Assembly: GCF_027942865.1 (NCBI RefSeq)
Contig: NC_134519.1
Span: 17,369,248 to 17,433,247, forward strand
Length of the DNA stretch: 64,000 nt
Direction: 5' to 3'
Origin: Odontesthes bonariensis
Lineage: Eukaryota > Chordata > Actinopteri > Atheriniformes > Atherinopsidae
The position numbers and the translations under genes were made by a program. Under the pieces are notes generated by a model, which was given only the letters and a program-made list of their open reading frames with translations, was not told the origin of the DNA and did not search any database. Below are positions 31,005-31,440 of this stretch, in pieces. Position 1 is the first letter of the stretch. Each line of letters opens with the position of its first letter.

Positions 31005-31440
31005 ATGAGTAATGATTTATCCAAAAAGAAGGGCAAGGGTTCGAGCGAGAAAAAGACAAAAAGAAAAGCTAAAAGAAGAGAGACTTACGCGATGTACATC
31101 TATAAAGTTTTGAAACAGGTAGGAAGACAAAGACAGTCCGCCGCTCTTATGGTCGCACTTGTCCCGCTCGCAAAACTACTGACACTCCTTTACCTGTCTG
31201 CAGGTCCATCCGGATACGGGGATTTCCAGTAGAGCCATGAGCATCATGAACTCTTTCGTGAACGACCTGTTCGAGAGAATTGCCACAGAAGCGTCCCGGC
31301 TGGCTCAGTACAACAAGCGCTCCACCATCACCAGCAGGGAGGTGCAAACTGCGGTGAGGCTGCTGCTGCCCGGGGAGCTGGCGAAGCACGCCGTGTCCGA
31401 GGGCACCAAGGCCGTCACCAAGTACACCAGCTCCAAATGA
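31005..31440 (+). CDS. Histone H2B variant with one intron (H2B.K-like)
   Basis: Exons 31005-31118 (38 codons) and 31204-31440 join at KVLKQ|VHPDTG across an 85-bp GT-AG intron in phase 0, giving 116 residues. The histone fold is complete: MYIYKVLKQ, the alpha-2 helix [37 protein letters not shown] and the C terminus AVTKYTSSK with the ubiquitination lysine. It packs with H2A in nucleosomes. Against canonical H2B it has a shortened, different basic tail ([11 protein letters not shown]), Arg in place of Lys in GISSKAMG, and Ser for Gly next to it. Replication-dependent H2B genes are intronless; this gene has an intron, an AATAAA at 31507 and no histone stem-loop. Human H2B.K maps to 7q36.1, the counterpart of this block, which supports the assignment. 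It could alternatively be a fish-specific variant. Confidence 0.9.
31119..31203 (+). other. Intron of the H2B variant
   Basis: It begins GTAGGA after AAACAG and ends CTGTCTGCAG before GTCCAT. Its removal restores the universally conserved KQVHPDTG segment, while read-through destroys it. At 85 bp it is a typical short fish intron. Confidence 0.93.

Follow-up and report, generated by a model that had tools for sequence, protein, structure and literature searches.

A solitary, spliced histone H2B gene of Odontesthes bonariensis as a likely fish orthologue of H2B.K

The window that we analyzed, that is, the whole stretch of 64,000 nucleotides from contig NC_134519.1 of Odontesthes bonariensis, contains a complete two-exon histone H2B gene on the forward strand at 31005–31440; it is flanked on one side by an ASB-type gene, a GBX homeobox gene and AGAP-like exons and on the other by a minus-strand ASIC exon (Table 1). 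The 116-residue product (pI 10.3; 16 lysines, 9 arginines, 3 aspartates and 7 glutamates) matches the Pfam Histone family (E 2.2e-24) and single H2B chains in the PDB (E down to 4.4e-54), far beyond chance. The first-pass annotation had described an H2B fold split by an 85-bp intron between KQ and VHPDTG, and the gene model bears this out; the intron lies inside the sequence that encodes the histone fold, at a point that we take to be between Q47 and V48 in human H2B numbering. Retention of the intron shifts the frame (85 mod 3 = 1) and leads to a stop codon, so that only splicing can yield H2B. The splice sites were chosen by frame and fold rather than by splice-strength scores: numerous alternative GT-AG pairs preserve the frame, and among the pairs listed only the one in Table 1 gives the whole fold. 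Base composition is very different in the two exons, with GC fractions of 0.35 and 0.59 for exons 1 and 2, respectively (0.47 and 0.81 at third positions).

Table 1. Positions of the H2B gene, its transcript-end signals and the neighboring genes recognized in the window.
Feature	Position	Strand	Length or spacing	Description
H2B exon 1, coding	31005–31118	+	114 nt	N-tail and start of the fold
H2B intron	31119–31203	+	85 nt	GT-AG (GTAGGA...CTGCAG), phase 0
H2B exon 2, coding, with TGA	31204–31440	+		remaining histone fold and alpha-C helix (VHPDTG...KYTSSK)
AATAAA polyadenylation signal	31507–31512	+	66 nt past stop	
AATAAA polyadenylation signal	31516–31521	+	75 nt past stop	
ASB-type gene	36192–40619	+		bounds are stop-to-stop ORF ends; by Pfam, ankyrin repeats in ORFs 37915–38211 and 38602–39285 and SOCS box in ORF 40401–40619; ORFs 36192–36785, 37402–37740 and 39740–39910 placed by eye (no Pfam match)
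GBX homeobox gene	43036–44799	+		homeodomain in ORF 44260–44799; ORF 43036–43668 placed by eye
Ankyrin exons, AGAP-like C terminus	54279–56100	-		ORFs 54279–54545 and 55702–56100
Acid-sensing ion channel, large exon	17434–18129	-		Pfam ASC, E 3.9e-33

The ends of the transcript are read from the signals downstream of the stop codon. Rfam returns no match at the gathering score in the whole window; at a lax threshold, 31380–32200 gives three weak matches, the histone 3' element not among them, and a typed pattern for the histone stem-loop consensus matches neither strand. Because the histone 3' stem-loop was not found and an AATAAA hexamer lies 66 nt past the stop codon, the mRNA is probably polyadenylated. 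A motif search of window ORFs of 25 aa or more finds no H2A, H3 or H4; the only other histone-motif match in the window (LLLPGE, in ORF 55945–56022) was judged to be chance. The anatomy is that of a solitary, replication-independent histone gene. The 600 bases upstream of the gene contain no match to CCAAT or TATA, and they contain three CANNTG boxes, a count given without a statistical test of chance occurrence. An octamer upstream (ATTTGCAT at 30652) was judged to be chance; the window has four copies, with 6.63 expected.

The N-terminal tail has 24 residues after the initiator Met (25 with it) before ETYAMYIYK; the corresponding stretch of human H2B presumably has 34. Nine of the first 25 residues are lysines, and poly-Q is absent. 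From this tail onward the protein is close to canonical H2B: the 91-residue core differs at 11 positions from human-type H2B (80/91 identical), at nine from Xenopus-type H2B and at seven from fly-type H2B, these being the species types to which we assume the compared PDB chains belong. The differences from the human-type core are S36T, S38A, V39M, V41I, K57R, G60S, I69L, G75T, H82Q, I94V and A124S. Five of the resulting residues (M39, R57, L69, Q82 and V94) are unique to the fish protein in a seven-core tree; V94 is, however, present in a fragment that the tree left out (L005, described below). The lysine-to-arginine change, at what we take to be K57 in human numbering, sits in the segment GISSRAMS, and the C terminus, with the alpha-C helix, is complete. 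H82Q is presumably near loop L2. The published changes of H2B.K cluster at loop L2 (PMC8857922). The short tail unlike that of canonical H2B, the K-to-R change in the GISSKAMG segment and the intact C terminus, all noted in the first-pass annotation, are thus found in the translated product; its description of the gene as divergent holds for the tail, which is clearly unlike canonical H2B, and is a strong word for the core. A core so similar to the canonical one suggests that the protein would form ordinary nucleosomes in which the tail is altered. We considered S60 as a mark of descent outside vertebrate canonical H2B and dropped it: the PDB chain Histone H2B 1.1, which we take to be from Xenopus, also has S60.

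A further reading is a non-functional relic that has stayed open by chance. The coding sequence runs through 116 codons without a break, and this, the GT-AG intron, the poly(A) signal and the 80/91 identity to the human-type core point to constraint; we consider a relic extremely improbable.

The neighbors differ in how firmly they can be named. For the homeobox gene, the best PDB match of the homeodomain is Homeobox protein GBX-1 (E 7e-39); the three chains listed include none of GBX-2. The gene is probably gbx1. The ORF with the SOCS box (40401–40619) has no match in a PDB search; from its position the ASB-type gene is probably asb10, a paralogue name that we assume. In the minus-strand ankyrin exons, Pfam and the PDB reveal ankyrin and do not name AGAP, and no window ORF matched the patterns of the remaining AGAP domains; we take these exons, from their position, to be AGAP-like. 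The ion-channel exon matches ASIC1 chains (E about 1e-79) and ASIC2 (4e-71), and motif patterns gave no convincing further ASIC exon. ABCF2 and IQCA1L are not among the neighbors recognized, the Pfam scan having covered selected window ORFs.

This set of genes recalls the block that contains H2B.K in other vertebrates. In cattle, a gene list with the histone reads ASIC3, CDK5, SLC4A2, FASTK, bta-mir-6525, TMUB1, AGAP3, ASB10, GBX1, IQCA1L, H2BE1 and ABCF2, and a second list for the same block lacks H2BE1 (PMC7655849); another study places H2BK1 between IQCA1L and ABCF2 (PMC11061390). A turkey list (ABCF2, ASB10, GBX1, AGAP3) names no H2B, and its order is that of the fish window; the cattle lists, which may not be in strict gene order, put ASB10 ahead of GBX1. 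The ASB-type, GBX, AGAP-like and ASIC-type neighbors agree with the earlier proposal that the region is the fish counterpart of human 7q36.1, which is the position given for H2B.K in the accessible part of PMC11742582. The ASIC exon is ~13 kb from the H2B gene, and in the cattle list AGAP3 falls between ASIC3 and the histone gene; either the block is locally rearranged or the exon belongs to another ASIC paralogue.

H2B.K has been described across bony vertebrates. Raman et al. (2022) reported that bony fishes have orthologues at the shared syntenic location, found an intron in every orthologue and a poly(A) signal in most of the genes, and dated the origin of H2B.K before the bony-vertebrate ancestor, with zebrafish and coelacanth among the species searched (PMC8857922). 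In the same study, canonical H2B and all further variants except H2B.N are intronless, H2B.N has its intron at the place in the fold domain where that of H2B.K lies, and intronless retrocopies of H2B.K occur elsewhere in mammals (PMC8857922). The sections of that study on the mammalian tails describe missing key lysines and the presence of poly-Q (PMC8857922). The excerpt available of a 2022 HGNC paper also names fish orthologues (PMC9526256), and that of a 2019 paper describes the human gene beside ABCF2 (PMC6886504); the part of PMC12803260 that is accessible contains nothing on H2B.K. Judged by titles and the starts of abstracts, the open literature searched holds no separate fish study of H2B.K. 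The first-pass annotation was correct that the variant predates the split of ray-finned and lobe-finned fishes, and this was published in 2022 (PMC8857922); that fish have H2B.K, and how old it is, was therefore not a new finding.

The best explanation for the gene, and one in which we have high confidence, is that it represents H2B.K (in human, H2BK1, formerly H2BE1) in fish as a true orthologue, solitary and spliced, with an mRNA inferred to be polyadenylated. Orthology is based on synteny, the presence of the intron and the transcript-end signals; phylogeny is not part of this basis. The gene shares with H2B.K a solitary location, an intron within the coding sequence of the fold, a fold and alpha-C helix close to those of canonical H2B, a divergent tail, and a poly(A) signal with no stem-loop found; it also shares the ASIC3-AGAP3-GBX1-ASB10-ABCF2 block, for which GBX, ASB-type and ASIC-type genes were recognized by search and AGAP by eye. 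It differs from H2B.K in its length (116 aa versus 122 aa in human), in that ABCF2 was not recognized among its neighbors in the selected ORFs scanned, and in its lysine-rich tail without poly-Q. The lysine-poor, poly-Q tail has been described for mammals, and we do not treat mammalian tail traits as defining for the vertebrate family. The neighborhood, the in-fold intron and the poly(A) signal without a stem-loop thus support the assignment to H2B.K made in the first-pass annotation. The presence of an intron alone is not wholly decisive, because a table in the accessible part of PMC11742582 has a yes/no column, possibly for introns, in which H2BW1, H2BW2 and H2BC12 are marked Yes as well.

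Canonical, replication-coupled H2B shares with the fish protein the fold, the alpha-C helix and the C-terminal segment, which presumably includes the K120 position. Canonical genes are reported to be intronless, with a 3' stem-loop, and to be located in multigene arrays, whereas the fish gene has an intron and AATAAA signals and stands in a window whose ORFs of 25 aa or more show no H2A, H3 or H4 motif. An alternative reading is that a canonical fish H2B copy was relocated here and gained its intron independently. The near-canonical core (11, 9 and 7 differences in 91 from the human, Xenopus and fly types) would fit such a copy, and no supported branch of the seven-core tree speaks against it; however, it requires the gain of an intron in a family reported to be intronless together with a chance landing beside genes that flank H2B.K in cattle, and the histone stem-loop was not found, so we regard it as unlikely.

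H2B.N (H2BN1) has a reported intron at the same fold location (PMC8857922), so the gene might instead be a fish-specific H2B variant or belong to an H2B.N-like lineage, with an intron held in common with H2B.K by older descent. We consider this very unlikely. H2B.N is reported in mammals only (PMC8857922 and, in the portions accessible, PMC9526256) and, in the available part of PMC11742582, is at human 17q11.2; its core is very divergent (canonical H2B and H2B.N have <50% of the fold in common), and its alpha-C helix, complete in the fish gene, is mostly lost (PMC8857922). Cleavage-stage H2B of sea urchin, which resembles H2B.K in its use in the early embryo, was grouped with H2B.K in the 2022 study with inadequate bootstrap support and has no intron (PMC8857922).

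The seven-core tree was built from 91-residue cores; it contains no H2B.K row, and none of its four inner branches is supported; the sequence by itself therefore speaks neither for nor against placement of the fish protein with H2B.K. Three of its rows, which serve as outgroup cores, are from genome contigs, in which five of 80 pattern matches (L001–L005) encode H2B, all in bins labeled bacterial; the tree left out L004, at 76% identity, and L005, a fragment of 40 residues. L001–L003 are read as eukaryotic contamination because H3 or H2A motifs share their stretch with H2B, and all five are probably misbinned eukaryotic contigs. L004 lies in a contig of 603,575 bases labeled Crocinitomicaceae. 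None of the eight pattern matches in viral contigs is a relative.

If the gene is H2B.K, a plausible course can be suggested for its product. Expression of H2B.K has been reported in the ovaries of opossum, dog, human, pig and chicken, and in the human oocyte and embryo (PMC8857922); by analogy, the female germline is the probable site of transcription of the fish gene. If spliced and polyadenylated, its mRNA would permit production of H2B outside S phase, and the protein could then pair with H2A via its ordinary histone fold and become part of nucleosomes in oocytes and early embryos. The gene would thus probably be a source of H2B for the chromatin of these stages.

The fish protein may also reflect ancestral H2B.K, which would then have been a maternal H2B from a spliced gene, lysine-rich and near-canonical; we offer this reading tentatively, since we think it somewhat doubtful. 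If it is true, H2B.K arose as a means of producing ordinary H2B free of S-phase control and not as a structurally special histone, and the lysine-poor, poly-Q tail of mammals came later. The gene adds an intact and clearly modeled example of an egg histone variant that generic annotation might merge with canonical H2B. Because the mouse genome lacks H2B.K, a fish that carries it could permit genetic tests that are impossible in mouse.

The remainder of the window has several minor features; tandem-repeat and tRNA scans reveal nothing that bears on the H2B gene. By eye, three ORFs (23632–24498 on the plus strand; 23204–23704 and 24798–25136 on the minus strand) resemble fragments of retroelements or transposons, and a 135-aa ORF at 8152–8556 (+) resembles a fragment of a HARBI1-type transposase; none of these has a Pfam match. 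An (AC)n microsatellite of 23.5 copies is located at 53148–53194.
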